From contig JALZUC010000038.1 in the NCBI GenBank assembly GCA_023301765.1, positions 1 through 64,000 on the forward strand: a stretch of 64,000 bases of DNA, read 5' to 3'. The DNA comes from Akkermansiaceae bacterium. Its GTDB lineage: Bacteria; Verrucomicrobiota; Verrucomicrobiia; Verrucomicrobiales; Akkermansiaceae. The position numbers and the translations under genes are program-made. The notes under the pieces were generated by a model, which ran no database searches, was not told the origin of the DNA, and saw nothing but the letters and a program-made list of their open reading frames with translations. Numbering within the stretch: the stretch's first letter is position 1; every line of letters starts with the position of its first letter. This document shows, piece after piece, positions 11,782-30,974 of this stretch.

Positions 11782-12717
11782 TTAGACCTCAATGTCAAAG
11801 AGAGAAGTAACAGATTTTCCATCATGGATGCGGCTGATAGCATCTCCGAGAAGCCCGGCTACCGAAATAGTCGTTACTTTTTCCCCATAGGCTTGAGGTA
11901 CTGAGTCTGTTGTAAGTAGCTCTTTAATAGCAGATTCAGCGATGCGTTTACGCCCCATTTCGCCAAGCACACCGTGGGAAACTCCGGCGTAAATGCTCTT
12001 TGCTCCATTTTCTTGAAGAATTTGAGCCGCTGCGCAGAGTGTCCCAGCTGTCTCTGTCATATCATCCACAAGTAGCACATTTCGTCCCTCTACATTACCT
12101 ATTACATTCATCGCCTCCACCTTTGTAGCACTGACGCGGTGCTTAGCTACTATAGCTAGCTCTGCACCAAGTTTATCAGCATAGGAACGTGCCATCTTAA
12201 CACCCCCAACATCTGGAGAGACCACCGTGAGATTACTGGCGTCTTCACCATGTTTATCACGAAGGTATTTGATAAAAACTGGTTTGGCGTAGAGATGGTC
12301 TACGGGAATATCGAAAAAGCCCTGAATTTGAGCGGCGTGAAGATCCATAGTAAGGACTCGATCTACCCCTGCAGCAGAAATCAAGTTTGCCACTAACTTC
12401 GCTGTAATCGGCACCCTTGGTTGATCTTTTCGATCTTGGCGGGCGTAGCCAAAAAACGGTATCACCGCAGTGATTCTACCTGCGCTAGCGCGCTTTGCCG
12501 CATCAACCATAATGAGCATCTCCATCAGATTATGATTAGTGGCCGGACAAGTTGGCTGAATCAAATAAACATCCTCTCCACGGATATTTTCATTAATCTG
12601 AACAAACGTCTCTCCATCTGGAAATGAGTCTACATTCACATCCGCAAGCCCCGTCCCAAGGTGCGTGGCTATCTTCTCTGCTAGCTCTCTATGAGCCTTT
12701 CCGCTGAATAATTTCAT
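11782..12717 (-). CDS. prs: Ribose-phosphate pyrophosphokinase
   Basis: A 311-residue PRPP synthetase (ribose 5-phosphate + ATP to PRPP + AMP), feeding nucleotide, His and Trp synthesis. Family blocks: MKLFSGKAHRELAEKIA, FPDGETFVQI, the flexible loop near FGYARQDRKDQPR, DLHAAQIQGFFDIPVDHL, VVSPDVGGVKMA, and the PRPP-binding loop VLLVDDMTETAGTL. Length is normal. It marks the right-hand border of the housekeeping block; the EPS locus ends 95 bp upstream of it in reading direction. Confidence 0.97.
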   Translation of the reverse strand: MKLFSGKAHRELAEKIATHLGTGLADVNVDSFPDGETFVQINENIRGEDVYLIQPTCPATNHNLMEMLIMVDAAKRASAGRITAVIPFFGYARQDRKDQPRVPITAKLVANLISAAGVDRVLTMDLHAAQIQGFFDIPVDHLYAKPVFIKYLRDKHGEDASNLTVVSPDVGGVKMARSYADKLGAELAIVAKHRVSATKVEAMNVIGNVEGRNVLLVDDMTETAGTLCAAAQILQENGAKSIYAGVSHGVLGEMGRKRIAESAIKELLTTDSVPQAYGEKVTTISVAGLLGDAISRIHDGKSVTSLFDIEV

Positions 12718-12812: not shown

Positions 12813-14225
12813 TTATTTCGCCCCTCTGCCAAAAAGAACAGCAGGAATGGTCATAATCAATAACTTCATATCAATCCACAGTGACCAATTGTCGATATAT
12901 TCTAGATCCATCTTCACCCAGTCTTCCCACTCAGTAATCATATTACGCCCACCTGCCTGCCAAGTACAAGTGATACCAGGTTTTACACTAAGTCTACGCC
13001 GGTGCTCAGATTTTTCAAACTCCGCAACCTCGTAAACAGGTAACGGCCTCGGGCCTACTAAACTCATATCACCAGAGATAACGTTAAGCATTTGCGGGAA
13101 CTCATCAATACTCCACTTCCTCAAAAGCCTGGCAAATGGGAAAACACGAGGGTCATTTTCCAGCTTAAATACCGGCCCACTCATCTCATTTCCCATATCC
13201 TCTTTTACCTGAGCTAATTTCGCCTCAGCATCCACCACCATCGTCCTAAATTTCCACATTTTAAAAGACTTACCATATTTCCCAGCACGCTCTTGCCGAA
13301 AAAATACTGATGCTCCTGGACTAGCTAGCCTAATACCAATCATCGCAAATAACCAAATTGGAGATGTAAGAAGAATAAATATACAGGCCCCTACTCGATC
13401 CATCGCCGATTTAAATAATAGTGCCCATGAAAGTTCGGGTGTGGTGCGTAATACTAGCATTGGCTTTCCTCCTAAATTATCAAACATAGGCCGAGATACT
13501 TGCGTACGGATAAACCCGGCTGATACCCACACCTCAATACCTTGTTTTTCACAAAGCTCCACAGCTCGTGAAATTTGCCTAAACGCAGTATCTCCAGATG
13601 CAATAATCACCCTTTGCACAGAGTTATCCACAAGTAAGCCTTCTAGTTCCTCAAAATCCTGAGAGTCTAAATTAAACTTATCAACCACCTCCCAGTAATC
13701 GGTGACGGTATGAGGCATCGCTTTTAGCAGCTTTTCAATATCCAGCGAGGTGCCAGTGATAATAACCCGTTCTTTAAGTCCACTTCCCTCTCGTGCAGAG
13801 TTTTTCAACTTTTGCCTAACAATTAAACTTCTAATCAAGAGCAATACGGCAGTCAGCCCAAAACCAACGGCTAACACAAGACGACTAGAAGGCGGCATTT
13901 TGAAAAACACAACCATCACAGCAACGGCTACACCAATAACGACAAAGCACCGTAGCATCTGAGACAATAGCTCCGGCACCGTCTTCCTCAGTATATTTTG
14001 GTAAAATCCAAATTTTTCCAAAACCAGAGGCGTGAAGGGCACAGCTATATATAGCAACCAAGAAATCTCATTGAGCCCCAGCTCATTAGCCTCCCCCATA
14101 CCAAATAGAGGGCGCAGGATAGGTCGCAGCTTATCTGCTAGCCAAAATGCAACAAAAACCAGAAAGGCATCACATATCTGTAATGCCTGGATAGAAAATA
14201 ACTCTCTTTGTCTAGAACCTAGCAT
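12813..14225 (-). CDS. Polyprenyl-phosphate sugar-1-phosphate transferase (WcaJ-like)
   Basis: A 470-residue inner-membrane initiating glycosyltransferase that loads the first sugar phosphate onto undecaprenyl phosphate. Four hydrophobic segments lie in the first ~135 residues, then a nucleotide-binding CoA-like fold (about 150-260), one more membrane segment (about 280-305), and the catalytic bacterial sugar transferase domain: FKMWKFRTMVVDAE, KWSIDEFPQMLNVISGDMSLVGPRP and KPGITCTWQ. It is the last gene of the EPS locus in reading direction, 84 bp downstream of the EpsI-like gene. The sugar it transfers cannot be read from sequence. Confidence 0.92.
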   Translation of the reverse strand: MLGSRQRELFSIQALQICDAFLVFVAFWLADKLRPILRPLFGMGEANELGLNEISWLLYIAVPFTPLVLEKFGFYQNILRKTVPELLSQMLRCFVVIGVAVAVMVVFFKMPPSSRLVLAVGFGLTAVLLLIRSLIVRQKLKNSAREGSGLKERVIITGTSLDIEKLLKAMPHTVTDYWEVVDKFNLDSQDFEELEGLLVDNSVQRVIIASGDTAFRQISRAVELCEKQGIEVWVSAGFIRTQVSRPMFDNLGGKPMLVLRTTPELSWALLFKSAMDRVGACIFILLTSPIWLFAMIGIRLASPGASVFFRQERAGKYGKSFKMWKFRTMVVDAEAKLAQVKEDMGNEMSGPVFKLENDPRVFPFARLLRKWSIDEFPQMLNVISGDMSLVGPRPLPVYEVAEFEKSEHRRRLSVKPGITCTWQAGGRNMITEWEDWVKMDLEYIDNWSLWIDMKLLIMTIPAVLFGRGAK

Positions 14226-14309: not shown

Positions 14310-15026
14310 TTATTGATCAATTACAAGTGGGGCTAACTCTCTGATGAAATCTTCAAGAATTTGCTCTGTTTGTTCTAAATTAAGCGCTTGCGATGAATCG
14401 ATTAAACCCTGATCAGCATACACTTGCGTAACGGGCATCGAAAAAGTAGCATAAGCCCACTGTTGATCATAGCCCTTGAACAAACGGTCTTTCATATCTG
14501 TAAACGTCCTCGTATAATGGCTTTCTGTAATCGTTTCATGACCAAAAAATGTATAATACTGAAGGCGCTGCACATTAATTTCTCTACCATCTTTAAGAGT
14601 CACCAGCTTAGAGTGTACAATTGTACGAAACGGTATATCAAAACCGCTTCCTAAAACATTTTTAAGTAATACCTTTTTTTCAACTAACAAGTTCCACCCC
14701 TGCGAACGCAAACATCGCTCAGGTCTATGGATGCTATTATTAAGATCTTTTCCTGAGAAAACTACTGAAACCTCTACTGCAGGTGCCAAAGGTACAGCTA
14801 AATTAATATATTGCGCACGAGCAAACTCTGTATCTTTTGCTAAAATATCAAGTTCAATGCCAGTAATCGAAACCCGCTTTCCCCTCATTGTGCTAAACTC
14901 CATTGGCAAGTCCCGCACTAATCTGGACCCCTTCATCCGTTCCGATTTCGGCAATAACCAAATCATCGAATACCCAACTGCCAAAATAGCAGATAGTATG
15001 TAAATACGTTTGTGTGTAGAACTCAT
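14310..15026 (-). CDS. EpsI-like exosortase-associated protein
   Basis: A 238-residue protein with one N-terminal hydrophobic segment (YILSAILAVGYSMIWLLP) and an extracytoplasmic domain. Motif HRPERCLRSQGW (near residue 100) marks the EpsI family, which is encoded beside or fused to exosortases. Sequence ends with a Glu-rich helix. It lies 34 bp downstream of the exosortase and is very probably cotranscribed. EpsI-type proteins are needed for export of some exopolysaccharides, but their biochemical role is not established. Confidence 0.85.
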   Translation of the reverse strand: MSSTHKRIYILSAILAVGYSMIWLLPKSERMKGSRLVRDLPMEFSTMRGKRVSITGIELDILAKDTEFARAQYINLAVPLAPAVEVSVVFSGKDLNNSIHRPERCLRSQGWNLLVEKKVLLKNVLGSGFDIPFRTIVHSKLVTLKDGREINVQRLQYYTFFGHETITESHYTRTFTDMKDRLFKGYDQQWAYATFSMPVTQVYADQGLIDSSQALNLEQTEQILEDFIRELAPLVIDQ

Positions 15027-15060: not shown

Positions 15061-15963
15061 CTACTGCACCCTTTTTCTAACTACCTTGTAATTTTGTTTT
15101 CTGTTAAAGGCACGATCAATAAAAAATAACCCCGTTAATGCAATGGGGAAGAAAAACAACAAGCCCGCCCAGTCATGATAAACTCCTGCAGCAAAATCGC
15201 TAAAACCCATCTCAGCCAGAACAAGAATTGTAAAAATTCTGAAAAAATTAGCAACCAACGCCAGTGGTAGAGAACACGCAAACAAAGCTGCCATTTTCCA
15301 TAGCCTATTTTGAGTAAAATAGGCATATACAGCAGAAATCATTACCAATGCCATCAGTGAACGTATCCCACTGCAGCCTTCTGCAATATTTAAAGAATTC
15401 CAGCTATCAGTGGCCGAACGAATTTCATTCCCTGAATTAATTAGCTTCATTCCCAACATTGTACCAACCGTGTAAGAGGACTGTGTCACTAGGATCTGTA
15501 ATGCATTTGTTGCTTGTTGTAGGCCCGGAACCGATATTGCGAACCACCAGAAAAAAGCCGGAAATATCATATGTTTAGCTACACCCCAACCACGGATATA
15601 CACCACACTCCCTAGTATCAAAAAGGGTAACCCTATCAAGGGCAAGCGTGGCTGAAGTGTCCTAACCGAAGCTATATAAAGTAATATCGCAAAACCAACA
15701 CCCAATAACCCTGCCCAATCTCCCTTAACAGGCTCCTGCTTCATCTTGGGCAAGGCTAATCCTACAAACATTATAAATAGCACGGGCACAGCCCATCCAT
15801 GTATAAAATCTCTTTTCCAAGAATCTGCCATGTAGAGTAAAAGTCGTTCATTGGACGTAGAGCTATTTGGATAAACCGGAAGAATTACCCAAAATACGAC
15901 CATCACAATGCTAAGAGCCATTAAAGGTAACGCGTAGCTACTGTATTTAAATTGATTATTCAT
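15061..15963 (-). CDS. Exosortase (archaeosortase/exosortase family transpeptidase)
   Basis: A 300-residue multi-spanning membrane protein with about eight hydrophobic segments. The catalytic triad of the family is visible: Cys197 in EGCSGIRSL, Arg242 in NFFRI and His263 in YHDWAG (numbering from the ATG at 15963). A GTG eight codons upstream (15987) is an alternative start, and neither has a clear Shine-Dalgarno. Exosortases process proteins with a short C-terminal sorting tail (PEP-CTERM or similar) and are often encoded in EPS loci. No protein with such a tail was recognised in this window, so the substrates lie elsewhere. It is 31 bp (or 7 bp) from the CDP-alcohol phosphotransferase. Confidence 0.9.
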   Translation of the reverse strand: MNNQFKYSSYALPLMALSIVMVVFWVILPVYPNSSTSNERLLLYMADSWKRDFIHGWAVPVLFIMFVGLALPKMKQEPVKGDWAGLLGVGFAILLYIASVRTLQPRLPLIGLPFLILGSVVYIRGWGVAKHMIFPAFFWWFAISVPGLQQATNALQILVTQSSYTVGTMLGMKLINSGNEIRSATDSWNSLNIAEGCSGIRSLMALVMISAVYAYFTQNRLWKMAALFACSLPLALVANFFRIFTILVLAEMGFSDFAAGVYHDWAGLLFFFPIALTGLFFIDRAFNRKQNYKVVRKRVQ

Positions 15964-15994
15964 AGTTGATAAATCAGATGAAACCACCCTTTTT

Positions 15995-16738
15995 TTAAAG
16001 GGGATAAGAGCTCTCGCGATCCATAGTGTCCATCTCTTTTTTAGCTGATAAAATATACAAAACCATTATCACAAAAACTCCCAAACCATAAAGAACAATG
16101 AATTCCCAAAACATACCCACAGCCCATGCTAGCCCTATAAAAAATCTGTAAATCGGTTCATCAATGTATAAGCTTACTGCCTTTTTTAGATGCCACCACA
16201 AATTATATTTTCTTGTATCCTCTCGCAAACGATCAGTTTTATACATTACCTCCTCCTTCAGCCACATCAATACACACAAGACGGTACGAAATGTTAAAAA
16301 AAGAACTATTACCCCAAGGGATACATCATAATCCCCTAGCCATATTCCCCCAACTCCATATGCTAAAATACAAGGTAATATCATACCCGAGCTCAAATCT
16401 GCCATCTTATCACTAAGTGAACCAAAGCTAGTCTCCTGGCCTGTCGCTCGAGCAAGCGGGCCGTCGGCACAATCAAACGCATAGCCAAGCTGTAGCCCTA
16501 GAATAAGAAACACACCTGCCCACACAGTTCCTTGTCCAACATATAGGGCTAAACACGCAGCGGTAATCGTAAGCGCTGCAGATATCACAGAAATCATATT
16601 CGGTGACACCCCCATTCTTGATGCAAGGTACGCAACCACCGCGCCTACCCGGTAGCTAAAATTCCGAGTAACCCAAATTGTCTGTCTCCCTCGCATTTCC
16701 CAGAAGTCTTGATATCTATATTTTCTATCTTCCTTCAT
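15995..16738 (-). CDS. CDP-alcohol phosphatidyltransferase family protein
   Basis: A 247-residue membrane protein with the CDP-alcohol phosphotransferase signature D89-x2-D92-G93-x2-A96-R97-x8-G106-x3-D110-x3-D114 (FDCADGPLARATGQ, GSLSDKMAD), all metal-binding aspartates present. The family moves a phospho-alcohol from a CDP/CMP-activated donor onto a lipid or glycan hydroxyl. The start overlaps the end of the reductase gene by 4 bp (ATGA), so translation is coupled to the phosphonate genes, and the exosortase follows at once. I infer that it transfers a CMP-activated phosphonate made by the three upstream enzymes; a conventional phospholipid role is the alternative. Confidence 0.88.
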   Translation of the reverse strand: MKEDRKYRYQDFWEMRGRQTIWVTRNFSYRVGAVVAYLASRMGVSPNMISVISAALTITAACLALYVGQGTVWAGVFLILGLQLGYAFDCADGPLARATGQETSFGSLSDKMADLSSGMILPCILAYGVGGIWLGDYDVSLGVIVLFLTFRTVLCVLMWLKEEVMYKTDRLREDTRKYNLWWHLKKAVSLYIDEPIYRFFIGLAWAVGMFWEFIVLYGLGVFVIMVLYILSAKKEMDTMDRESSYPL

Positions 16739-17898
16739 CTCTCTTTGATCATTTTTTTAAGCATTTCCATCAGACCTTGTTCAGTCAACCTTCGAGGATT
16801 GTTGTTAACTCTTTCGGGGTTAAAACCGTTTTTTAAAATCACCTCTATATCCTGAGATGATTCTACTCCCAATCTAGACAAGTCTGATTCTAGTCCGATT
16901 TCATTAAGCCGCTGAATCAGTACTTCTGCCCCTTCTGAGGCATTTTTACATCCTAGTATATCGATGACCTCCTTTAATCGTGATCTCACCCATTCGCTTC
17001 CACGGGGGTCTATACAGTCCGTATCGTTCACCTCCATATTGTATGTTAAAAAATGAGGTGTTAACAATCCCACAGCATGGCCGTGAGGTATATTATAGAA
17101 TGAAGTCAATGCATATGAAACTGCATGCGGCGCAGTTGTTTTGGTTATATTGATTGCCACTCCAGCTAAATGGGATGCTCGTGCAATCTTTTCTAGTGAT
17201 TGTGGGGTTCTTTCATTAACGGCCTCTGTCATAGACGACCAGGCTAACGACATAGCCTCTTTTGCTATCAATAGTGATTGCTCAGTTGAATAAATCGACC
17301 AGTAAGACTCTATAGCCTGGCACAGGGCATCCATTCCGCTTGATGCCGCTACCGACTTCGGTAAACTTTGTAACAAAGTCGGAATTACTACAGCATAATC
17401 AGGAAGTAATTTCTCATGAGCTACTGAAAATTTTTGTTTCCCCTGATAGACAACTGCAAAATGTGTTGCCTCACTCCCAGATCCTGCCGTGGTGGGAATA
17501 GCCACGAGCGGCACATCGGCAGGCACTAAATCCTCAACACCTTTTAAATAATCCGAAACAGGGTTGTCACTATGCCAAAATGCCTTAAGTAATTTACCCA
17601 TGTCTATGACGCTCCCGCCACCAATGGTAATGATCGCGTCATAAGTTCTGTCGCTCTTTATAGATGATAAAATTTGGACAACGTCATCCGCTTTGGGGTT
17701 CGTTTGAAATTCGTAAACTCTACGCACATTCACATCCTTCAGCACAATGCCGAGGGAGACTTCCGCCCCGGAAGAAGAATAAGCACTATTGCCAGTAACT
17801 AGCAGAACAGATTTAACAAAGTTAGCATCTAAAAAGTGAGCGAGCTTCCCCCATCCATCGTCCCCAATATAACTTCTTTTTTCAACATCATTGCTCAT
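16735..17898 (-). CDS. Iron-containing alcohol dehydrogenase, probable phosphonoacetaldehyde reductase
   Basis: A 387-residue group III (Fe-ADH) dehydrogenase. GGGSVIDMGK (residues 93-102) is the nucleotide site and PTTAGSGSEAT (135-145) is a family block. Metal ligands by alignment to FucO would be D190, Q194, H258 and H272; the usual second ligand His is Gln here. Phosphonoacetaldehyde reductases of known phosphonate pathways (PhpC, FomC) belong to this family. Position 6 bp after phosphonopyruvate decarboxylase therefore points to reduction of phosphonoacetaldehyde to 2-hydroxyethylphosphonate. No aminotransferase of the AEP type is present, which also favours the hydroxyl product. It overlaps the next gene by 4 bp. 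Confidence 0.85.
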   Translation of the reverse strand: MSNDVEKRSYIGDDGWGKLAHFLDANFVKSVLLVTGNSAYSSSGAEVSLGIVLKDVNVRRVYEFQTNPKADDVVQILSSIKSDRTYDAIITIGGGSVIDMGKLLKAFWHSDNPVSDYLKGVEDLVPADVPLVAIPTTAGSGSEATHFAVVYQGKQKFSVAHEKLLPDYAVVIPTLLQSLPKSVAASSGMDALCQAIESYWSIYSTEQSLLIAKEAMSLAWSSMTEAVNERTPQSLEKIARASHLAGVAINITKTTAPHAVSYALTSFYNIPHGHAVGLLTPHFLTYNMEVNDTDCIDPRGSEWVRSRLKEVIDILGCKNASEGAEVLIQRLNEIGLESDLSRLGVESSQDIEVILKNGFNPERVNNNPRRLTEQGLMEMLKKMIKER

Positions 17899-17904: not shown

Positions 17905-19038
17905 TTAGCTCATCAAATGAGCCATAAAATCTTTTTTATTTTCAATAGGAGTGGTTGTAGGGCGTCCTAGGTTTGACCTCGCTCCGGACATTACTCGAAT
18001 CTCAATCAAACAAGCTACCCCCAAATTCCTTACGCGTCTGAGTTCATTTCGTATTCCCTCAGTCGAATTAACACTAACGGCTTCCACGTATCCACAAGCC
18101 TTTGCAACAGCAGGTATGTCGATATCAAAACCTACAGTAGGCTGCCCTCCAACAGAGTCATGCTTCCCGTTATTTACAACAATATGTATAAGATTCCCCC
18201 CCTGATACTGACCGGTAACACCAAGTGACCCCATATGCATGATTACGGCACCGTCACCATCAATGCAGTAGACTTTTTTATCTTTCTTTGAAAGTGCCAC
18301 TCCCATGGCAATTTGAGAACAATGTCCCATACTACCCACAGTGAGAAAGTCTTGCTCATGGCCTTGCCCTCTCTTCTCACGGCATTCATAAACCTCACGT
18401 GAAATCATTCCCGTAGTTGAAACAACCACATCATTTGCTGCTATTTCGCTTAGTATAGTCTCCAAGGCCTCTTCTCGTTTCAAAGAAATACCAGTCGGTT
18501 TTTCCTCAGTAAACTTTCTTAAGTATGGAGCAAAAGTATTTTTCCGAACAATCAAAGCTGTAGGACACTTCAAATCTAGCGCCATCGCTAACATTTCCTT
18601 TAACACATGGTGAGCACTTGCATCGTCATTTGGGAGGATTTTATAAGGTATCCCTATTGTCTCTAGTAAATCAAGTGTCACCTCGCCCTGTTTAACGTGC
18701 TGAGGTTCATCTTTCACTCCAGGCTCACCTCGCCACCCAATCAACAGTAGCATTGGAATCGAATATACTTTTGTATCTGTAAGCGAAAGCAAAGGATTAA
18801 CAGTATTCCCAAATCCAGAATTCTGCATATAGACCATGCCCGGTTTGCCTGTTGCTAAATAGCTACCCGCAGCAAGCCCAATCGCAGCACCTTCGTTAGC
18901 CGCAATAATATGTTCATTTCCATCTGATTCTTCCGTGATGCACGCGCAGACCTCCTTAAGTAAGGAATCAGGAATGCCAGTATATAAACTCAATCCCTCA
19001 TCAGAAAGAGCATCAAAAAACTTATTACAGTCTAACAT
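17905..19038 (-). CDS. ppd: Phosphonopyruvate decarboxylase
   Basis: A 377-residue thiamine-diphosphate enzyme converting phosphonopyruvate to phosphonoacetaldehyde and CO2, the step that pulls the unfavourable mutase reaction forward. The N-terminal pyrimidine-binding half has catalytic Glu49 in AANEGAAIGLAAG and MQNSGFGNTVNPL. The C-terminal half has the ThDP/Mg motif GDGA (261-264) to NN (289-290) and GKHDSVGGQPT, a signature of phosphonopyruvate and sulfopyruvate decarboxylases. It is 16 bp downstream of the PEP mutase. The sulfopyruvate alternative is ruled out by that neighbour. Confidence 0.95.
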   Translation of the reverse strand: MLDCNKFFDALSDEGLSLYTGIPDSLLKEVCACITEESDGNEHIIAANEGAAIGLAAGSYLATGKPGMVYMQNSGFGNTVNPLLSLTDTKVYSIPMLLLIGWRGEPGVKDEPQHVKQGEVTLDLLETIGIPYKILPNDDASAHHVLKEMLAMALDLKCPTALIVRKNTFAPYLRKFTEEKPTGISLKREEALETILSEIAANDVVVSTTGMISREVYECREKRGQGHEQDFLTVGSMGHCSQIAMGVALSKKDKKVYCIDGDGAVIMHMGSLGVTGQYQGGNLIHIVVNNGKHDSVGGQPTVGFDIDIPAVAKACGYVEAVSVNSTEGIRNELRRVRNLGVACLIEIRVMSGARSNLGRPTTTPIENKKDFMAHLMS

Positions 19039-19054: not shown

Positions 19055-20356
19055 TTAATCCTCAATCAGTTTCAAAATTTCTTTAACTGGCATACAGAAC
19101 TCGTTTGCTTCTAAGCTTCTTTTATTTTTCAAAATAACTTCCGCAGTGTTTTTCATCGCTGGATATGCACTTCTGAGTAGATGATTAGCATAAATGACAA
19201 CACTAAAGCCCATATCCGCTAATTCATTTTCATATAAATGTTTATACGTCGTTGGGACGCAAATCAATGGCACCCTGTTTTCAAATTTATTATAAGCATC
19301 ACAAAATTCTTTAATTTCTTCCCCGTCTTGCTCCCGGCTATGGATCATAATAGCATCTGATCCAGCTTGAATATACGCTTGAGCACGCTCTAAGGCATCG
19401 TCCATCCCTTGATTCGCAATCAAACTTTCAATACGAGCAACAATCATAAACTCGTTCGTTACTTGAGCCTGCTTCCCTGCATGAATTTTTTCACACATCG
19501 CCTCCTTTTTGAGCAAAATCTGGCGTCTATCAGTGCCAAATAGTGAATTTTGCTTAAGTCCTTGCTTGTCTTCAATAATTACGGCTGAGACACCCATACG
19601 CTCAAGAGACCTCACCATTTTAGTGAAATGCTCTGTAATGCCCCCAGTATCACCATCGTAAATGATTGGTTTTGTTGTAATATCAAGAATCTCATTAATA
19701 GTCTGGGCTCTAGATGTTCTATCAACAAATTCAATATCTGGCCGACCTTTCGCGGTAGAGTCAGTGAGGCTACTTAACCAAATAGCATCAAATTCTTCCA
19801 CTTTACCTGCATCTTGCACACTGGCGTGCTCCACAATCAGTCCCGAGAGTCCATTATGAGCTTCCATGACTCTTACAATCGGCTTCGATCCAATAAGTCG
19901 CCTTAGTTTACCCAATCTAATCCCAGGAGTCGTTCCAATATCTTTGACTGCGTTATTAAGTGCGGTAGAAGATAAACCTTCTGTATATTTGGGTTCAATT
20001 AATTCGCCCCCCCAAAGTTTCAATACTTCAATGACACGGTTACGAGTTTCCTTCTGCGGACCAGTTTTCCAATCATCTCCATGAACCACATAATCAGGCC
20101 TGAGGGCCTCCAAGTTAGCAACATAATCAAGCGTTTCTTGCGGCACTACCCTCGCTACTCCTTTAACGTTTTCTATGATCACCTTACGTTGCTCAAATGG
20201 TAGACTCGGTAACCTTTTATAGCTCGCAATTGCTTTATCCGTTAAGAGTCCAACAGTGACACTGCCATATTGCCTAGCCTTATCTATTATATTAATATGG
20301 CCAGGGTGAATAAGATCCGCACTCATCCCTACATAAACTGTTTTTTCTCTACTCAT
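19055..20356 (-). CDS. pepM: PEP mutase with N-terminal nucleotidyltransferase domain
   Basis: A 433-residue fusion. Residues 1-140 are a cytidylyltransferase-like domain with HPGH at 17-20 and a C-terminal [10 protein letters not shown] block. Residues 150-433 are PEP mutase, which forms the C-P bond of phosphonopyruvate from PEP. YDGDTGG (233-239) and the mutase-specific [10 protein letters not shown] (262-271, fitting EDKx5NS) distinguish it from isocitrate-lyase relatives. Known phosphonate pathways often activate the phosphonate with CMP, and fusions of this type are known; the substrate of this N-terminal domain is inferred. It starts the phosphonate-exosortase run of tightly spaced genes, 104 bp after the O-antigen-ligase-like gene. 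Confidence 0.95.
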
Positions 20357-20460: not shown

Positions 20461-22695
20461 TTATTGTCCAAGCCCAGTTTTCTTAAAAAACTTAACTAAC
20501 TCTTTTACTTCCAGATAAGCAGGCTCTGCAAGTTTATCCTCCTTACCTTTTAATACCACATTATGAATATGGTAGTTTTTCTCCGCTTTAATGAGTAATG
20601 GATATGCTAATTCTGGTTTGCGTTGATACCATAAATACTTAGCATGCCGGAGGTAATGCTCTCCCATCTCACGTCTGATATTCGATCTCAAACTGTTAAT
20701 ATGATAGTTTTTTGATTTTTTCTCCAATGCATCAAACATCACCCCTGCTTCATCATATTCATCAATTGAATCTAACATTCTGCAGTATTCTATCACTACC
20801 ATAAACCGCAGCTCAACAGTGTCGCTACCATGCACTTTGCCATTTTCTAGAATCTCTAACGCCCTTAAGTAATGATGTGTGGCTCCCTCCGTATCTCCCT
20901 TTAGCCATAACGAGCCAGCCCACTGCCTCTGCATGTCCGTCCACTTAGTACGGATTCTAAATAATCGCTCACGAGACGAAGCTATCTCATCTACCATAGT
21001 ATAATAATTATCTGCTTCCTCAAAATTTTTAGAATAAGTTAGTAAAATCGCTAAATTAATTTTTGCTACTGGGTCATATGGATGTCTCAACTCAGCCGCT
21101 TTATAATAGCTCATCGCTTGATCAAACTTTTGTTTTCTGACTTCACCCTCTATCTTTTCACCCTGAAGTCTATATAAGGCTCCTAATCTCAAATACCTTC
21201 TATAGCTAGGTGCACTCTCAACAGCCTTTTCCAGACTGGGTATCCACACCTCATCATCTACCTCATCAGGCACCCAAGTCCCTGTTTCTGTAACCATCTT
21301 ATTAGCTAATAACGGCAGACCCCCTCTGAACTGTTTAGCGCCATGATAAAGCGCAGTTATCCCCAGTGTAAGTAATATAGCTATTAACAGGATTATAGAA
21401 ACCCACTGTTTATCAGTTTTTCTATCTCTTGCAGCAGGTAAAACCCAAATAGCACAACACACAAAAATCAATAGGTTTGCCAGTAAGTGCGTTCTGAAAT
21501 CAGCAACGATATGCACGCCAACTATTACCATACCAGTAACCCCAGCTATAGAAAGTGCCATAGCATTAGAGCCACCATTAAGTGCACTCTCAGGGAGCTT
21601 AGCTGAAATAGACCGTATTTGAATGACCCCCTGCGATAAATGCCAACCGATAAGGCCAATTATTATGAGGAAACCTACAATGCCGTAATCCGCTAATAGC
21701 TGCAGATACTCATTATGAGCAAATTCAGGATTTGCCTCACCTGTATCTAAGTTAGGGCTCCAATAACGAAAACATTCATAAGCATAACTACGGCTACCAG
21801 CACCAAAGATGGGATGCTCCACAAATTGCTCAACAGCCATCGACCAGTAGGCTAAGCGTACATCAGAATCAAAAACTACATCCACGCCCTCGGCCTTGAT
21901 CGCACGAGACTGGAACACCCAAACAGTCGCCACTATAAACATTACAACCCCAAGGCCACTAGCAATAAATGTGCCCAACCTGAATCTACTTCGTATCTTG
22001 GCCTCTTGACTCTCCACAGAGAACCATAGCAATGCTAACATCGCTATGCCTCCCACTCCTAAGCTAACAATAGCTGATCTAGATTGAGTAAAACAGACAC
22101 AAAGTAATGCAAATAAGCCTACAACTACCAATAGGGCTCTTACCCACTTTGGTGACCGCCCCCATATACCCAGAGATAGCGACACTACGCCAGAGACCGC
22201 TGCGAAATTAGCAAAGCTACCGCGATATCCATACATCCCCGTTATCACCTCATTATCGATCCGTTCGGCAGATGTAAATAACCACACTAAGCCATATCCC
22301 TCGTTACCGAACATCTGCAACAAGGCAGCGCCTAGATGCAAACAAAGTATTGATATAACAGTCCAGGCCAATGCTGTTCTACCAAGTGGATAACCAAGAA
22401 CTTGACCGCCCAATAAATAAAATAAAACCGCAGCTAAGATCAAAAACTGATCCTCAAGTGCTAAATCCTGAACTGGTGATAACCATGAGCGCACCAAGAA
22501 ATACACAGTGGCCAGTAATATAGGTAATAACCAAGTAATTCTAATCTGTATGTTGGTAGTAACCAGGCAGCTCACAATAGCTGTGAGGCCAATCAAAATC
22601 ATCGCCGGGCCTTGTAAAACAAGACTATGGGTAACCCCAAGACAGCACGCTATGACTAAAGCCAAGCATAACATAAATATTAAACAAACTCTCAT
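20461..22695 (-). CDS. O-antigen ligase/polymerase-like membrane protein with TPR tail
   Basis: A 744-residue protein. The N-terminal ~450 residues have about 11-12 hydrophobic segments and a large extracytoplasmic loop with FAHNEYLQLLADYGIVG, typical of the Wzy_C/O-antigen ligase family. After the last membrane segment (ISIILLIAILLTLGITALY) a soluble C-terminal region of about 280 residues has helical repeats resembling TPRs (RRYLRLGALYRLQGE, AMSYYKAAELRHP, ATHHYLRALEILE). It overlaps the downstream glycosyltransferase start by 4 bp. It probably polymerises or ligates the glycan. The TPR part may bind partners; the acceptor is unknown. Confidence 0.82.
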   Translation of the reverse strand: MRVCLIFMLCLALVIACCLGVTHSLVLQGPAMILIGLTAIVSCLVTTNIQIRITWLLPILLATVYFLVRSWLSPVQDLALEDQFLILAAVLFYLLGGQVLGYPLGRTALAWTVISILCLHLGAALLQMFGNEGYGLVWLFTSAERIDNEVITGMYGYRGSFANFAAVSGVVSLSLGIWGRSPKWVRALLVVVGLFALLCVCFTQSRSAIVSLGVGGIAMLALLWFSVESQEAKIRSRFRLGTFIASGLGVVMFIVATVWVFQSRAIKAEGVDVVFDSDVRLAYWSMAVEQFVEHPIFGAGSRSYAYECFRYWSPNLDTGEANPEFAHNEYLQLLADYGIVGFLIIIGLIGWHLSQGVIQIRSISAKLPESALNGGSNAMALSIAGVTGMVIVGVHIVADFRTHLLANLLIFVCCAIWVLPAARDRKTDKQWVSIILLIAILLTLGITALYHGAKQFRGGLPLLANKMVTETGTWVPDEVDDEVWIPSLEKAVESAPSYRRYLRLGALYRLQGEKIEGEVRKQKFDQAMSYYKAAELRHPYDPVAKINLAILLTYSKNFEEADNYYTMVDEIASSRERLFRIRTKWTDMQRQWAGSLWLKGDTEGATHHYLRALEILENGKVHGSDTVELRFMVVIEYCRMLDSIDEYDEAGVMFDALEKKSKNYHINSLRSNIRREMGEHYLRHAKYLWYQRKPELAYPLLIKAEKNYHIHNVVLKGKEDKLAEPAYLEVKELVKFFKKTGLGQ

Positions 22696-23810
22696 GCTTC
22701 TACATTAGTATTAATTGTATCTCTAAATACCTGTTCCATTCTTGAGATGAAAACATCCTTCGTGAAATTTTCGGTATAATGCTTTACCCCTGCTGCACCC
22801 ATCGATTTACGCAAACCTTGATTACTTAGAAGTTTCTCAACGGCCTGTAGCAACGAATCAGGGCACCGCACTTTACACATTTCTGCACACCCACTATCGC
22901 CAATGACATGTGGTATACCACGCCAACGATTAGTAACAATGGGTAGGCCGAATGCCATCGCCTCAATTAATACTAAACCAAATGTTTCCGTAGGGTGCTG
23001 CGTTGGAAAAAGGAAAACATCTCCATCCGCATAAGCTTGCCACTTAGCATTGCCGGATAAAACCCCTGAAAAATGAAACATATCAAAAACATCTGCTGAT
23101 TGACTTAGAGTCTTAAATTTATTCTCAGTATCAAGTGATGACCAGCCGCCGACTAATTGAAAACAAACAGAATACCCATTTATTTTAAGTGACTTAGCCA
23201 AATCTATAAGATCAAAAACACCTTTTTCCTCAGATAACATACCTACATACAGTAAATTCACATTATCAGTTTTAGAAGGTTGTCGCTGAGCACTACCAAC
23301 ATCCAGACCATTCATGACTACAACATTTTCTTGAGCATTAAAATACTCACCAGAAGGAGGTGTTGTAATATTAACATCTATCGAACAATCCATCCTGCCA
23401 TATGCAAACAAAGCGAGTTTTTTAATGATTCTCCTCTCATCGAGGAATTCACCTAATCCTCCCGCGTGATGATGGTATACAACTTTAGGAAACATCCAAC
23501 GCACAGCCAACAAGTAGACAATGTCTCTGATTATTGGCGTGATATTGGGACTAGCAGGAAGGTAATATAAGGCCTTTGGCCTGCATCTAAAGACGATACT
23601 CCACGTAGCAACAATTAAACATACTAGTCTCCACACCTTATGCCATGAAGCCACACCTACAGAATCAAGGTCATCGCTAAAGCCCATCCGTAACCGCTGC
23701 ACTCTTAACTCGCCCCAGTCATGATCGAATAACATCGCTGTGACTACGGCTTGGCCATGCAGTGGCGGTGGGGTTTGCCCAACTAACAAAATATCAGCTC
23801 TTTTACTCAT
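22692..23810 (-). CDS. Family 4 glycosyltransferase
   Basis: A 372-residue retaining GT-B enzyme. The N-terminal lobe includes LLVGQTPPPLHGQAVV; the C-terminal GT4 donor domain has NVVVMNGLDVG, LLYVGMLSEEKGVFDLI and the E-x7-E motif in ETFGLVLIEAMAFGLP. Donor and acceptor cannot be predicted. It overlaps the next gene in reading direction by 4 bp (stop at 22692, ligase start at 22695), which fits one EPS operon. Confidence 0.9.
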   Translation of the reverse strand: MSKRADILLVGQTPPPLHGQAVVTAMLFDHDWGELRVQRLRMGFSDDLDSVGVASWHKVWRLVCLIVATWSIVFRCRPKALYYLPASPNITPIIRDIVYLLAVRWMFPKVVYHHHAGGLGEFLDERRIIKKLALFAYGRMDCSIDVNITTPPSGEYFNAQENVVVMNGLDVGSAQRQPSKTDNVNLLYVGMLSEEKGVFDLIDLAKSLKINGYSVCFQLVGGWSSLDTENKFKTLSQSADVFDMFHFSGVLSGNAKWQAYADGDVFLFPTQHPTETFGLVLIEAMAFGLPIVTNRWRGIPHVIGDSGCAEMCKVRCPDSLLQAVEKLLSNQGLRKSMGAAGVKHYTENFTKDVFISRMEQVFRDTINTNVEA

Positions 23811-23879
23811 ACGTAGACATCACAATTGCTAATAGGCCACTTTGCACCGTATTTTACTAAAAGCTCTACCACCCAGTAT

Positions 23880-24731
23880 TCAATTTTTATTAGGTCGATG
23901 CATTCTAACTAAGAACTGGCGTTGCACTTTGAATGCAAAATGCATGAGAGCATCGATAACAGAATTTATTTGCTCATTACTAGTTAATTGCGGTGCGTAG
24001 GATCTACGGATAGCAATCGATTCAGCATATTGTAGCTGTAGATCAAGTTGTTCATCAATGCCTCGTGCACCTAGATGTTTCTGACTTAGGTTTTTACCAT
24101 GCAATCTAAAATCAGCTAAAACCTCAGGAAGATACACAAACTTTTTATCCGCATGAATGAGTCTATTATAATATTCGCCGTCCATAACATATTTAAAATC
24201 AATATTAAGTAAGTGTCCCTCATTCATGACTGTCTCACGTCTATAAAATGTAGCTGTGGATGCTATATAACATAAATGTGCCAACATCATTTTACGTAAA
24301 GGGTAAACGTTCATTGTTCTTTGATAGCTACCGTCCCCCCCCACAAAGTTCCAGCATCCATAGATCACATCAGCATCGGGCTGTCCTTCAGCAAACAGCT
24401 TCACCTTGGCTAAGGCACCCGGTAAAAAGTAATCATCAGTATTAAGCCACATAACCCACTTACCTCGCGCCACTTTAAAGCCCTTGTTAATAGCATCAGA
24501 CATTCCTCTGTCGCCCTCTACTGTTAAACTCACGTGATCATACTCCCTAATAATATCAAGTGTCCCATCTGTTGAACCTGCATCATAGACAAGGTGTTCC
24601 ACAGTTACTCCATCCTGATCTCTTACACTATCCAAACACTCTCGAATATACCTCGAGTAATTATAACTTGGCGTAACAATCGTAAAATCGACTTCTTCAC
24701 TCATAGTTTTAAATTTAATATTATCAGTCAA
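23880..24731 (-). CDS. Family 2 glycosyltransferase
   Basis: A 283-residue GT-A enzyme. FTIVTPSYNYSRYIRECLDSV opens the fold, DAGSTDGT and RGMSDAINKGFKVARGKWVMWLNTDDYFLPGAL contain the metal/nucleotide-binding DxD-like Asp cluster, and the C-terminal LADFRLHGKNLSQ is common in EPS family 2 enzymes. Start may be the internal Met at 24704 (MSEEVDFTIV), which fits the family better. Sugar specificity is unknown. Confidence 0.88.
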   Translation of the reverse strand: MTDNIKFKTMSEEVDFTIVTPSYNYSRYIRECLDSVRDQDGVTVEHLVYDAGSTDGTLDIIREYDHVSLTVEGDRGMSDAINKGFKVARGKWVMWLNTDDYFLPGALAKVKLFAEGQPDADVIYGCWNFVGGDGSYQRTMNVYPLRKMMLAHLCYIASTATFYRRETVMNEGHLLNIDFKYVMDGEYYNRLIHADKKFVYLPEVLADFRLHGKNLSQKHLGARGIDEQLDLQLQYAESIAIRRSYAPQLTSNEQINSVIDALMHFAFKVQRQFLVRMHRPNKN

Positions 24732-24742
24732 ATAGACTGCTT

Positions 24743-25300
24743 TTATAGATTTTTGATTACTTTACATGGATTCCCACCAGCCAAGACCCCAGTAGGAATA
24801 TCTTTTACAACAACAGACCCGGCGCCAATGACGGAACCATCACCAATAGTTACACCTTTCAACACAATCGATCTAGCGCCTATGAAGACCCCTTTGCCAA
24901 TGTGAACAGGCTCTGATACTATTGAGTTCTCGGAGCCTAGAGGTATCTCATGAAAATCATGATCTACGATCAGGCAACCTGAACCAATCATTGCACCTTC
25001 ACCAATGGTGATCTTTCTAGATGCCCAAATCACTGTATTGGAAATACCAGATCCCTTTTTTAATTCGAGGATCGCACCAGGGCGATCAGCTACTAAGGAA
25101 GAAGGACAGCCAGGACTTAAGCGATTAGCCCAACGAGATGAAACAACAGATACTGCGTCGTTTAAAATGATTTTTGCTTTGTTATCTTTTTTTACCGAGG
25201 GAATTCCAATCACCTGAACCCCATCCTTTAAATCTAAACCTTTCAATTTAAGCCAAGATTTACAAAAAAAGTTTATCAAACTTATTATGACTGTTTTCAT
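24743..25300 (-). CDS. Hexapeptide-repeat acyltransferase (CatB/LacA-like)
   Basis: A 185-residue left-handed beta-helix protein from the chosen start MKTVIISL (25300). A start 11 codons upstream would overlap the next gene by 13 bp. Hexapeptide repeats run from about residue 95 to the C-terminus (IGEGAMIGSGCLIVDHD, IGKGVFIGARSIVLKGVTIGDGSVIGAGSVVVKDIPTG). The DHDFHE block holds the likely catalytic His, and the end AGGNPCKVIK is typical. It probably O-acetylates a sugar of the repeat unit. Confidence 0.85.
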   Translation of the reverse strand: MKTVIISLINFFCKSWLKLKGLDLKDGVQVIGIPSVKKDNKAKIILNDAVSVVSSRWANRLSPGCPSSLVADRPGAILELKKGSGISNTVIWASRKITIGEGAMIGSGCLIVDHDFHEIPLGSENSIVSEPVHIGKGVFIGARSIVLKGVTIGDGSVIGAGSVVVKDIPTGVLAGGNPCKVIKNL

Positions 25301-25320
25301 TTTTAAACTTAATATTTCGG

Positions 25321-26247
25321 TTACCAATAACACCCACCTTCAATCGAATCAGCTCCAGCTGGCTTATCCTCCGCAAGTGGTTCTATCCAGTGTTCATTTA
25401 TGAATGACTTAGGCACACGATTATTTTGTGTAACATAACGTTTAGTTTTAATTCCAAACAACGGATCAATCGATCCCCCCATATTAATACCTACTTTCCC
25501 TATTTTTTTTGCGTAACTAACAAGCTGATTCGAATAGCCTCCAGCAGCCGCTAATACTATTTCAGGGTCATAGTCATCTATATAACCACGCATCTTAATC
25601 AGCTCTTCTTCTGAGGATAGACTTGTATTACTTGGATCAACCAATGGCGAAAACGGAGACCTCAATAGATTGTAATCTGCATCTGGCAGCGAGAATTTAA
25701 CATGCTCAAATATTTTTTCTTTTATTGTGAGTTGCTTCTCAATGGTCTTTACATTTGATGTTACAATTAAAATTTTCTTCCCACTGCACGCTGAAAGCCA
25801 TGACACATTATCCAGCATAGCATGTACAATAGTAGAGTTACCCAGTGCCACACATTTATCCAAGTAATACCTGAGGATGTATAATTCTATAAAATTATAA
25901 TAAACTGCGAACATATCCATTTCTTGGATAACTGAACGATAAGATTCCCCCCAGGCTCGATAGTATTCCTCGTCATCTGGATATATCCCAGCATTTACTG
26001 ACATGCCTTTTCGCGTGCTTTTATAGTTAATTTTAACCCAATCAGGGTGTTTATCACCATTATAAGCACAGAAGCCGTTAAGTTCGCTAACACCTAAACG
26101 GCCTAGAGCAAATGGTTTTTCTTCATGGATGGCATTTATGATCTGTTCTGATAAGATTTGCGGTGAATTATAGCTACCTTTAACTAGGCCAAGTCTATAG
26201 GCCGTTTTCACGGCCTTTCTACGTAGTAGTTGTTTTGATATTAGCAT
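25321..26247 (-). CDS. EPS-locus protein of uncertain family, possibly GT-D-like
   Basis: A 308-residue soluble protein. I do not recognise it firmly. FALGRLGVSELNGF near residues 45-58 recalls the RxGDGE-type motif of GT-D (DUF1792) glycosyltransferases but lacks its acidic residues. ILIVTSNVKTI and EIVLAAAGGYSNQLVSYAKKIGKVGINMGG look like a Rossmann-type half with a glycine-rich loop. It lies between two glycosyltransferase/acyltransferase genes in the same orientation, so a sugar-transfer or modification role is inferred from context only. Confidence 0.55.
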   Translation of the reverse strand: MLISKQLLRRKAVKTAYRLGLVKGSYNSPQILSEQIINAIHEEKPFALGRLGVSELNGFCAYNGDKHPDWVKINYKSTRKGMSVNAGIYPDDEEYYRAWGESYRSVIQEMDMFAVYYNFIELYILRYYLDKCVALGNSTIVHAMLDNVSWLSACSGKKILIVTSNVKTIEKQLTIKEKIFEHVKFSLPDADYNLLRSPFSPLVDPSNTSLSSEEELIKMRGYIDDYDPEIVLAAAGGYSNQLVSYAKKIGKVGINMGGSIDPLFGIKTKRYVTQNNRVPKSFINEHWIEPLAEDKPAGADSIEGGCYW

Positions 26248-26291
26248 TACTGTTTATAAGATTTGTTAATATGTCTAAAGCTTTTATATTG

Positions 26292-27452
26292 TTAGTTATT
26301 TAATAGTCTCTCATACTGTTCGTTAAGTAAGCTCGCAATTTTTCGCGGACCAAGATCATCTAATACCAGAGTTCGAGCTCTCGATCTTTCTTCAAAAAGA
26401 TCCTCTCCTATGCCTAATTCGGTTTGATGTAAAATTGCCTCTGCTAAGTCTTCAGCGTTCCGTTGGGAAACAATTGTACCATTCCCGTATTTCTCAATAT
26501 TTTCTGCCATACCAGTATTTTCTGTAACAATACAATGGCAATAACAAAGTAATGCTTCAATGACTTGATTTCCAAACGTTTCGCCATAAGAAGGTGCTAC
26601 CAAGATATTTACGGCTGCTAGCCCCTTACGTAAACTGATCGGCGAAACCTGCCCGTGCCTATAAAACCGATGTCCTGTTGCTTCTATAGCCGAAATTTCT
26701 CTATGCACATAATCATCAGAGCCTCCTTCTCCATAAATATGGAGCTCCATAGGGTTCTTAGTTGAATCTATTAATTCTATGGCTTGTCTTACAAGATGAA
26801 AACCCTTGCGCTCACATATGGTCCCAACAAAAGCTAATCTCCTTGGATCTTTAGTCGCTACAGGTGGATCAAGGAATGTACCTGTAATTGTATTGGGTAT
26901 AATAGTACAATCCAATTTAGGGTATAATTGATTTACAACATTCCCAAACTGCCTCGATTTAACAATGACCTGAGAGGTCTTATTCAAGACCCTTCTCTCC
27001 AGGTATTCAATAATCTTAGGGGCAGAGATAGTAGCTACAGGGTTCTTTTCATTATAATCTTCATAAAGAGCTTGAAGCGTAATTATCTTAGGTATTTTTA
27101 ATTTATACGCGGCTAATCCATAGGCGTCTTCTAGTCCATGAACATGTAATAATGACGGCGTTAAATTTTTAATAGTATTTTTTAACCGTATTATATCGCA
27201 CGTAAATAGTGTCCAACATCTGAGGCGTGACTGAGCTTTAAGGTATATTATATTCACCTTGTTATAGGTCAGCATGTGGTCACAGGATGCTCCTTTGACA
27301 AGTGTGATAACAGTAACCTCAAAATCTGTATGTCTACATACTGCTATTGCTTGGTCCAATACCCAGCGTCCAGGATGCCTTTTGACCTTTCCATAGTCAG
27401 GATGATCTTCAAGTAATGGTATATGTCCTAATATAAATATTTTTTTACTCAT
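26292..27452 (-). CDS. Family 4 glycosyltransferase
   Basis: A 386-residue GT-B enzyme. The start MSKKIFILGHIPLL at 27452 is preferred; the open frame extends 26 codons upstream, but that part overlaps the neighbouring membrane-protein gene and is not family-like. Domain landmarks: TIIPNTITGTF, LAFVGTICERKGFHLV and the E-x7-E motif in GETFGNQVIEALLCY. It probably adds one sugar of the repeat unit on the cytoplasmic face. Confidence 0.9.
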   Translation of the reverse strand: MSKKIFILGHIPLLEDHPDYGKVKRHPGRWVLDQAIAVCRHTDFEVTVITLVKGASCDHMLTYNKVNIIYLKAQSRLRCWTLFTCDIIRLKNTIKNLTPSLLHVHGLEDAYGLAAYKLKIPKIITLQALYEDYNEKNPVATISAPKIIEYLERRVLNKTSQVIVKSRQFGNVVNQLYPKLDCTIIPNTITGTFLDPPVATKDPRRLAFVGTICERKGFHLVRQAIELIDSTKNPMELHIYGEGGSDDYVHREISAIEATGHRFYRHGQVSPISLRKGLAAVNILVAPSYGETFGNQVIEALLCYCHCIVTENTGMAENIEKYGNGTIVSQRNAEDLAEAILHQTELGIGEDLFEERSRARTLVLDDLGPRKIASLLNEQYERLLNN

Positions 27453-27489
27453 AATAGTATCCGACTCCAAGAAGTTGCTATCGAAGTAA

Positions 27490-28935
27490 TCACTCTCTGG
27501 CTTCATACCAACGTTGCTCTTTAAGTCCATTATTAACCGCGCATGTTAACCCCAAAAATAAGCCCCCGCCCATAGCTAAAACTGCAACATCACCACTACT
27601 CAAGGAACGCATAACACCGAAAAACATAAAGAAGAATATCATAGCCATCAGGGATCTAGGCCAAATGGGAAGATCCGCTATGTGTCCTAATGACCAGCTA
27701 CGCTTCAATACAAAAATTTGTAGTATGAGCCACGCTATGGCACAAGGGATACCAAAAGAGGCCGACAGACCTAACCATGTACTATGCCAGTTTTTACCCG
27801 CAATATGAGGAAATGCAAGTATGTCATCTTCTGAAAACTTAATTTGATGAACGTATGAGGTATCATTCATTAGCTGGAAATCATCTATAGTAAGACTAAC
27901 CCCTTTCCCAATAATTGGCCTTTCTTTTATATTGATGATAGCCCATCGGTTTAATGTCTCACGAAAAATATCATTAGTGGAGTCTTCAACCTCATGACTC
28001 CAATCAGCAGGAATAAACGCAATTACTCGCTGAAATTGAAGCGGAATAGGTGTCACATAATTCTGCATTACCACAGCACCCATAATTGCTAAACTACCAA
28101 GCATAATAACGGCCATTGCAATGACAGCTTCACGGTGCCAAAAACATGCTATAATCGGAATAACGCAGCAACCTGCAAAAGCCATCCGTTTACCTGAAAA
28201 CATACAGATGGCTAATAGTAAAACATAGGCTGCTACTTTCCATGGAGTTTTAATAATATTCGATGGACTGAACCTTGCAAACATCAGGAATACACCACCT
28301 AAAGAAATAAGAGATAGCCCCTGCTGCCAGCTATAGAACCCTGATTCAGCACCAATAGCCCTATAACCAATAAAAGTACTAATGGCCGTGTAGACCCCCG
28401 TCAGGGCAGAAGCGCTGAATAATAAATAACATACTCTCTTGGCTTGCTTATCGCGAATAGACATCTGACTCAACATCATCATGCCTACTACTGCTATAAT
28501 AACGGTTAGATAACGTCTACCACCTACTGCTTCAGCCCCTAAAATAGCTAAGCCTCCACCATTGATCAATGCTATCAGTATTACCCACCCGCCGTAGATC
28601 AACATGGGCCACCAATCTGCAATTCTTATTTTGAAGTTTTTACGTCCTTGTATTACGGCTAAGACCATTAATCCGCTAAACATCGTAACAACCATCTCGG
28701 CTAAACTAATTGACCGGCCTGCAAACAAAGGTATGGCAGGAAGCTCAGCCAACATTGCAAATGGTAATAAATACCAGGTTCTTAACCCCAGTAATAAAAA
28801 TATCGGAATACTGAATATCAGAACCATACTGATATACACAGTTTGGAATTCACCTTGCCCAACCTGAACTGCCAAGATAATAGCAACGATCAGACCTATT
28901 ATTACGATAAACAGAGCAATTAATTTATTATTCAT
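27490..28935 (-). CDS. Wzy/O-antigen-ligase-like polytopic membrane protein
   Basis: A 481-residue inner-membrane protein with about 11-12 hydrophobic segments and one large periplasmic loop (about residues 295-380) containing RPIIGKGVSLTID and WHSTWLGLSASFGIPCAIAW. The HSTWL-x5-FG pattern is that of the Wzy_C/O-antigen ligase superfamily. With the flippase immediately downstream it is the best candidate for the repeat-unit polymerase; the TPR-tailed protein at 20.5-22.7 kb is the second family member in this locus. Confidence 0.82.
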   Translation of the reverse strand: MNNKLIALFIVIIGLIVAIILAVQVGQGEFQTVYISMVLIFSIPIFLLLGLRTWYLLPFAMLAELPAIPLFAGRSISLAEMVVTMFSGLMVLAVIQGRKNFKIRIADWWPMLIYGGWVILIALINGGGLAILGAEAVGGRRYLTVIIAVVGMMMLSQMSIRDKQAKRVCYLLFSASALTGVYTAISTFIGYRAIGAESGFYSWQQGLSLISLGGVFLMFARFSPSNIIKTPWKVAAYVLLLAICMFSGKRMAFAGCCVIPIIACFWHREAVIAMAVIMLGSLAIMGAVVMQNYVTPIPLQFQRVIAFIPADWSHEVEDSTNDIFRETLNRWAIINIKERPIIGKGVSLTIDDFQLMNDTSYVHQIKFSEDDILAFPHIAGKNWHSTWLGLSASFGIPCAIAWLILQIFVLKRSWSLGHIADLPIWPRSLMAMIFFFMFFGVMRSLSSGDVAVLAMGGGLFLGLTCAVNNGLKEQRWYEARE

Positions 28936-28950
28936 AAAATCTTAATATCT

Positions 28951-30186: not shown

Positions 30187-30236
30187 CGTAACTCAATTCT
30201 ACACAAAAGGCTTAACAAGTAGTTAGAGCATAAGGT

Positions 30237-30941
30237 TTAACTAATATTATATTTATTAGGTGAATTACGTGGCCTCATGATCCCAAGCCCACCAATAATA
30301 CCTGACTTTTGATAATTTAAATCAAACTCTTTACACCATTCTGATGCTATTCTTTCCTCACTTTCTCTATCTATATCATCTAGAAACACTACAAAATCTT
30401 CGGCAAGGTAATCACGTAATTTGTGTAACGCAGGGTATCTAGCATTATAGCCTGTACTTGCTATTGGTGCATCCACTAGCAGAACGTCAAAAGGCTTGTA
30501 ATTCAACTTGGCTGCAACATCGTCATTATCTAAATCATACCATTTATAACTTCTACCGTTGATGTCTTGAGGCACTAATTCGGCGTGAATAAATTCACAA
30601 GCATGTTTGTAACCACCTAGATTTTTCTCTGTCACTTTAATCCAACCCTGATCATTTTCCAAACTAACCATATTCGCACCACGTTCACTCAGGAATTTTG
30701 ATAACATCACAGTAGACATACCACAGCCAATTTCTAATACCCTTGATCTGTTATGTATGAGTATTTCGTTATACATCATAGCTACAGCACTCGGCCGTAG
30801 TGCGGAACCAGTCCAAGGAAGGTATTCATCTATATATGGCTTTAGTCTCTGTAATGCTTTGGCATCATGGATCTCCTGTAAAACAGTACGATTAAGTGTC
30901 GAGTCATAGTGCTTAAATAGCTTTTTAATTATTTGCTTCAT
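30237..30941 (-). CDS. Class I SAM-dependent methyltransferase
   Basis: A 234-residue protein. The Rossmann motif I SRVLEIGCGMSTVML (near residues 65-80) and an acidic end of strand 2 (MVSLENDQGW) form the SAM site; FDVLLVDAPI is motif IV. The N-terminal 60 residues are a helical cap. Context in the EPS operon suggests O-methylation of a sugar, but a small-molecule substrate such as a phosphonate ester is an open alternative. Confidence 0.8.
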   Translation of the reverse strand: MKQIIKKLFKHYDSTLNRTVLQEIHDAKALQRLKPYIDEYLPWTGSALRPSAVAMMYNEILIHNRSRVLEIGCGMSTVMLSKFLSERGANMVSLENDQGWIKVTEKNLGGYKHACEFIHAELVPQDINGRSYKWYDLDNDDVAAKLNYKPFDVLLVDAPIASTGYNARYPALHKLRDYLAEDFVVFLDDIDRESEERIASEWCKEFDLNYQKSGIIGGLGIMRPRNSPNKYNIS

Positions 30942-30974
30942 AGAAGATAAATATGATTCTTAATTATTATACTT

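Follow-up and report, generated by a model that had tools for sequence, protein, structure and literature searches.

A CDP-alcohol phosphotransferase gene paired with an exosortase gene in Akkermansiaceae: a candidate swappable head-group module in exopolysaccharide loci

We found that a gene for a CDP-alcohol phosphotransferase (CDP-OH) directly precedes an exosortase gene in the window, a 64,000-nt stretch of contig JALZUC010000038.1 (GCA_023301765.1, Akkermansiaceae bacterium; source genome G000), and that the same pair recurs in relatives, where other head-group enzymes can also fill the position upstream of the exosortase. We give about an even chance to the reading that the locus is a swappable module, which puts 2-hydroxyethylphosphonate (HEP) or another head group on a glycan or lipid of the exosortase/exopolysaccharide (EPS) locus. 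To our knowledge, no acceptor of bacterial exosortases has been identified, and the pair with its swappable head groups supplies specific genes, strains that have it or lack it, and predicted masses.

Every listed gene of the EPS cluster lies on the minus strand (Table 1). The order of transcription is a Wzy_C/TPR protein, a cytidylyltransferase (CyT)–PEP mutase (PepM) fusion, phosphonopyruvate decarboxylase (Ppd), an iron-containing alcohol dehydrogenase (Fe-ADH), CDP-OH, the exosortase, EpsI, the priming sugar transferase, and prs. Throughout the order, prs is a conserved neighbour of exosortase loci, being close to the exosortase in most of the related ones. The Fe-ADH stop and the CDP-OH start share an ATGA, and the coupling of CDP-OH to the phosphonate genes claimed in the preliminary description was thus borne out. 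Its spacing of 7–31 bp to the exosortase, followed by EpsI, likewise holds, as the gap is 7 bp with the listed GTG start at 15987 or 31 bp with an ATG at 15963; the ATG is the likelier start, judged by comparison with the aligned G133 homologue. EpsI follows the exosortase after 34 bp. The CDP-OH catalytic motif DCADGPLARATGQETSFGSLSDKMAD is intact, the protein having the DxxDGxxAR-G-D-D pattern of a multi-span membrane enzyme, and the exosortase retains the conserved Cys of GCSG, Arg of NFFR and His of YHD. In a promoter and terminator scan, the number of sites did not exceed that in shuffled sequences.

Table 1. Genes of the exosortase/EPS cluster in the window, with the profile matches that identify them
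Feature	Coordinates	Strand	Evidence
PRPP synthase (prs)	11782..12717	-	NF002320 438 bits (cut-off 297)
Polyprenyl-phosphate sugar-phosphate transferase, starts EPS synthesis	12813..14225	-	TIGR03025 353 bits (cut-off 295.6)
EpsI/DUF3485 exosortase-associated protein	14310..15026	-	PF11984 48.4 bits (cut-off 26.1)
Exosortase (EpsH family)	15061..15987	-	PF09721 131 bits; TIGR02602 110.5 (cut-off 105.6)
CDP-alcohol phosphotransferase (CDP-OH), 247 aa, predicted CMP-HEP:acceptor phosphonotransferase	15995..16738	-	PF01066 46.8 bits (cut-off 22)
Iron-containing alcohol dehydrogenase, predicted phosphonoacetaldehyde reductase	16735..17898	-	PF00465/PF25137
Phosphonopyruvate decarboxylase (Ppd)	17905..19038	-	TIGR03297 499.7 bits (cut-off 312.5)
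Fom1-like fusion, N-terminal cytidylyltransferase and PEP mutase	19055..20356	-	TIGR02320 397 bits (cut-off 319.6); PF01467 46.4
Wzy_C/O-antigen-ligase-like membrane protein with TPRs	20461..22695	-	PF04932 78.5 bits; weak TIGR03097 43 bits
EPS genes: glycosyltransferases, acyltransferase, second Wzy_C, Wzx, methyltransferase, WecG	22692..31763	-	Pfam matches

The source genome (2.46 Mb, 97.8% complete) was searched with profiles for PEP-CTERM-like tails, as the preliminary description had proposed, and yielded six matches over the cut-off, with VPEP..R-rich tails. It also encodes a second exosortase on another contig (L009:6992-10501, G000:C41), nearest to XrtQ at a score below the cut-off. 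This gene adjoins that of a PEP-CTERM protein of its own (715 aa). What look like a response regulator and a sensor kinase are encoded upstream, and a 174-aa protein of no known family comes after.

We then considered the chemistry of the phosphonate cassette. The EDKxxxxxNS motif of the PEP mutase and the HPGH motif of the fusion are both intact. The best NCBIfam match of the Fe-ADH is PsrA (TIGR03405), at 161 bits below the cut-off of 423.7, and its predicted role in HEP formation was assigned by gene context; the Fe-ADH gene comes after PepM and Ppd in most related loci. Since the cassette combines Ppd and Fe-ADH with a PEP mutase fused to CyT, and annotation of the neighbours shows no aminotransferase, HEP and CMP-HEP would be its expected products, for which Fom1 provides the biochemical precedent (PMC6697681), and the earlier caution that the product should carry a hydroxyl rather than an amine thus agrees with the prediction. 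A side observation concerns the metal-ligand position in the DALxxAxE motif of Fe-ADHs from PepM loci, which is often Gln instead of the usual His: 61 matches in L142–L221, a set considered alongside the window Fe-ADH, comprised 33 with Gln, 12 with His and 16 without the pattern.

CDP-OH is the sole candidate found in the source genome for using CMP-HEP, being the one match of its type there; no PF04464 protein was detected in that genome and no LicD within the window, the scope of the LicD search being the fetched loci. Consistent with such a role, CDP-OH, LicD or Glyphos_transf (TagF-type) proteins interchange as the transferase of PepM loci across the phylum, and CDP-OH therefore fits the last step, in which an acceptor would receive HEP from its CMP carrier. 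LicD and Glyphos_transf are glycan-directed families. The 80 GTDB loci nearest to the window PepM included 59 with Fe-ADH, 19 with LicD, 10 with CDP-OH and 2 with Glyphos_transf (3 with a wider profile). An exosortase was found in none of these 80 loci, many of which lie on short contigs and many of whose hosts may lack exosortases; outside the order, exosortases were detected with a profile built from 16 sequences.

We thus propose that PepM, Ppd, Fe-ADH and the fused cytidylyltransferase would supply CMP-activated HEP, that CDP-OH would pass HEP to an acceptor bound to the membrane and belonging to the exosortase/EPS assembly line, and that the outcome would be a phosphonate-decorated surface polymer beside PEP-CTERM protein sorting. 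In this part of the family, the module would come in several versions directly 5' of the exosortase, namely CMP-HEP with CDP-OH, a nucleotidyltransferase with CDP-OH, and CDP-glycerol-type enzymes with a TagF-type transferase. The acceptor would most likely be a lipid-linked glycan made by the locus, because CDP-OH interchanges with LicD/TagF-type enzymes and because the locus is an EPS cluster, with glycosyltransferases, a transferase that initiates synthesis, Wzx and two Wzy_C proteins. A diacylglycerol lipid would be less likely. Among CDP-OH enzymes of known structure that take soluble CDP donors are the diacylglycerol-using choline/ethanolamine phosphotransferases, and since the CDP-OH profile matches these about as well as AF2299 and PIPS, a phosphonolipid may also be the product; the nearest solved structures were accordingly set aside as a discriminator between diacylglycerol and glycan acceptors.

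We surveyed the pairing across the family. Of 260 family genomes searched with the CDP-OH-type profile (A3), nine gave a strong match (G000, G133, G624, G627, G628, G632, G657, G658 and G664). In all nine, with the G632 and G657 loci interrupted by contig ends, CDP-OH shares its strand with an exosortase and is the closest gene on the 5' side of it. The adjacency is therefore not a one-off, and the pairing exceeds chance. Its spacing varies from 2–3 bp (three genomes) through 38–105 bp (four) to more than 400 bp in G624, where the gap holds only a short overlapping ORF, and strict translational coupling of the pair was rejected as evidence, close spacing not being conserved. Furthermore, the pair is kept when PepM is elsewhere: the PepM locus of G624 (L246) is some 36 kb distant and lacks a transferase, G627 and G632 have PepM on a different contig, and G657, G658 and G664 gave no PepM match and have a nucleotidyltransferase preceding CDP-OH. 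A single contig of G628 holds two PepM cassettes (L248:6544-11418 and L249:5789-11265) with different transferases, CDP-OH in the cluster beside the exosortase and a TagF/TarL-like enzyme in the other. In the sampled genus, in which several genomes are incomplete, CDP-OH occurred only where exosortase and PepM were both found.

The slot upstream of the exosortase also accommodates other enzymes. In G663, a nucleotidyltransferase–HAD protein and a Glyphos_transf (TagF-type) protein are encoded directly 5' of the exosortase, and in G659 a full CDP-glycerol set, consisting of Glyphos_transf, glycerol-3-phosphate dehydrogenase (GpsA) and TagD (174.7, over the cut-off of 165.4), lies just 5' of it. 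Among 46 exosortase loci examined (L073 obtained via PepM, L272 via CDP-OH, and the others via exosortase searches or being the window itself), 12 carried CDP-OH or Glyphos_transf within the fetched flanks, 11 of them upstream on the same strand and 10 immediately adjacent. On the exosortase tree, the linked and unlinked states change at least four times, and starred branches force three of these changes. G658a and G663, which are sister exosortases (100/99), have different transferases. On the CDP-OH tree, a single origin of the exosortase-linked proteins was not rejected (AU p 0.465). The tree thus does not prove a repeated origin of the pairing, and g1/g8 and g231 may not be independent. 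In family f3 of the same order, six genomes (L122–L127) encode CDP-OH proteins about 28–32% identical to that of the window, and the flanks fetched for these showed no exosortase. Searched across the phylum, the CDP-OH profile gave only weak, partial further matches; the pairing is thus known only from this family.

The preliminary description had suggested that the module makes a phosphonate acceptor for sorted proteins. As a general anchor for exosortases this was rejected, since exosortases (PF09721 over the cut-off) occur in 120 of the 142 genomes of the order and PEP mutase in only 10, and the PepM genomes without a detected exosortase include G038, G065, G090 and G093. The proposed survey of co-occurrence thus went against a link of exosortase to PepM, and, within the family, in favor of one to CDP-OH. 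The description had also named, as evidence against its own suggestion, relatives that keep an exosortase with neither phosphonate nor CDP-alcohol genes nearby and still sort proteins, and in gene content the close relatives G623, G653 and G654 fit this: their exosortases are 52–60% identical, they have 81, 35 and 20 PEP-CTERM matches, respectively, and profile searches found in them no PepM, no CDP-OH of the window type and no PF04464. In addition, the PEP-CTERM tails (VPEPSTTALLGLGGLALILRRRK and similar) are alike in genomes with and without the head-group module. What stands of the suggestion is narrower, namely the conserved pairing, its persistence when PepM is elsewhere, and the other head-group enzymes in the same slot.

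These features would also suit a lineage-specific acceptor, in which the CDP-OH product, an HEP-lipid or HEP-glycolipid, receives the PEP-CTERM proteins cleaved by the exosortase, while in relatives a different head group or a housekeeping lipid takes that role. The restriction of CDP-OH within the genus to genomes with exosortase and PepM points the same way, as does the parallel to Methanosarcina, where artA-pssA synteny led to the proof that PssA and PssD are needed for ArtA substrates, with archaetidylethanolamine as the proposed ArtA acceptor (PMC7157517). Against it stand the three relatives with many targets and no such transferase, the identical sorting tails, a predicted product with hydroxyls and no amine, and the usually glycan-acting nature of the TagF-type transferases in the same slot, and we regard it as rather unlikely. 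The parallel itself, also drawn in the preliminary description, holds for synteny, a CDP-alcohol phosphotransferase gene adjoining an archaeosortase/exosortase-family gene, and breaks down as a requirement, because the sortase and its targets are not always accompanied by the synthase (G623, G653 and G654). The window further differs from artA-pssA-pssD (PMC7157517) in its predicted donor, a CMP-phosphonate instead of CDP-archaeol, and in having no decarboxylase and a hydroxyl for an amine. If the acceptor reading held, the exosortase-linked acceptor with its CDP-OH-made, swappable head group would be a bacterial ArtA–PssA counterpart with a C–P bond, which we consider unlikely.

The pairing might instead reflect architecture only, the exosortase being where conserved gene order begins beside a variable EPS region, and decoration genes happening to sit at this boundary with no bearing on protein sorting. 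Indeed, the exosortase–EpsI–priming transferase–prs flank is constant whereas the upstream side varies (Wzy_C, a DUF1501 protein, a helicase, CDP-OH or Glyphos_transf), and in G096, a member of another family, a nucleotidyltransferase and CDP-OH (L131:1587-3393) lie in an exosortase/EPS locus, 6 kb from the exosortase and on the opposite strand. However, the transferase is immediately upstream in most of the transferase-bearing loci, and a rough, post hoc calculation under a uniform-slot model with about five assumed origins gave p ~0.002 for three of the five falling at the exosortase-adjacent position. An early view of CDP-OH as a chance neighbor in an EPS locus was thus demoted by the family-wide survey to a minority rival, which we consider unlikely. 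That the cassette yields a free small-molecule phosphonate unconnected with envelope assembly is very improbable: Fom1-type fusions also serve in fosfomycin synthesis (PMC6697681), but the annotated neighbors, which are EPS genes and a membrane phosphotransferase, showed no additional tailoring enzymes.

The preferred reading, a swappable head-group module, joins features of several known systems. Pnt clusters with CyT-fused PEP mutase, including those of HEP phosphonoglycan producers (Rice et al. 2019, PMC6697681), share the PepM–PF01467 fusion, Ppd, a reductase (here predicted), a transferase and a surface-polymer locus, whereas in the window the transferase is a CDP-OH enzyme beside an exosortase, a gene absent from the nearest GTDB PepM loci. 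The PEP-CTERM/EpsH exosortase–EPS loci (Haft et al. 2006, PMC1569441) are alike in exosortase, EpsI, priming sugar transferase, Wzy-like proteins and scattered PEP-CTERM targets, to which the window adds the head-group module directly 5' of the exosortase. A likeness to the CDP-glycerol pathway of teichoic acids (TagD, TagF/TarF) is seen in G659 and G663, with a TagF-type gene upstream of the exosortase in both and a true TagD in G659; in contrast, the host of the EPS locus is probably Gram-negative, and CDP-glycerol genes are not in the window. A search of the open-access literature, with subscription papers mostly outside its scope, found no paper in which "exosortase" and "CDP-alcohol" occur together. 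Even if the product only decorates EPS, PEP-CTERM loci would still be tied to HEP, which has been listed as one of the most abundant phosphonates in the high-mass organic phosphorus of the sea (PMC8931226).

Finally, in genus g9 a DUF1501 protein is encoded directly 5' of the exosortase (L281:8097-9494), where relatives have the head-group module. Similar N-termini occur in L283, L284 and L285, and in several loci the DUF1501 protein is accompanied by one of about 170 aa.
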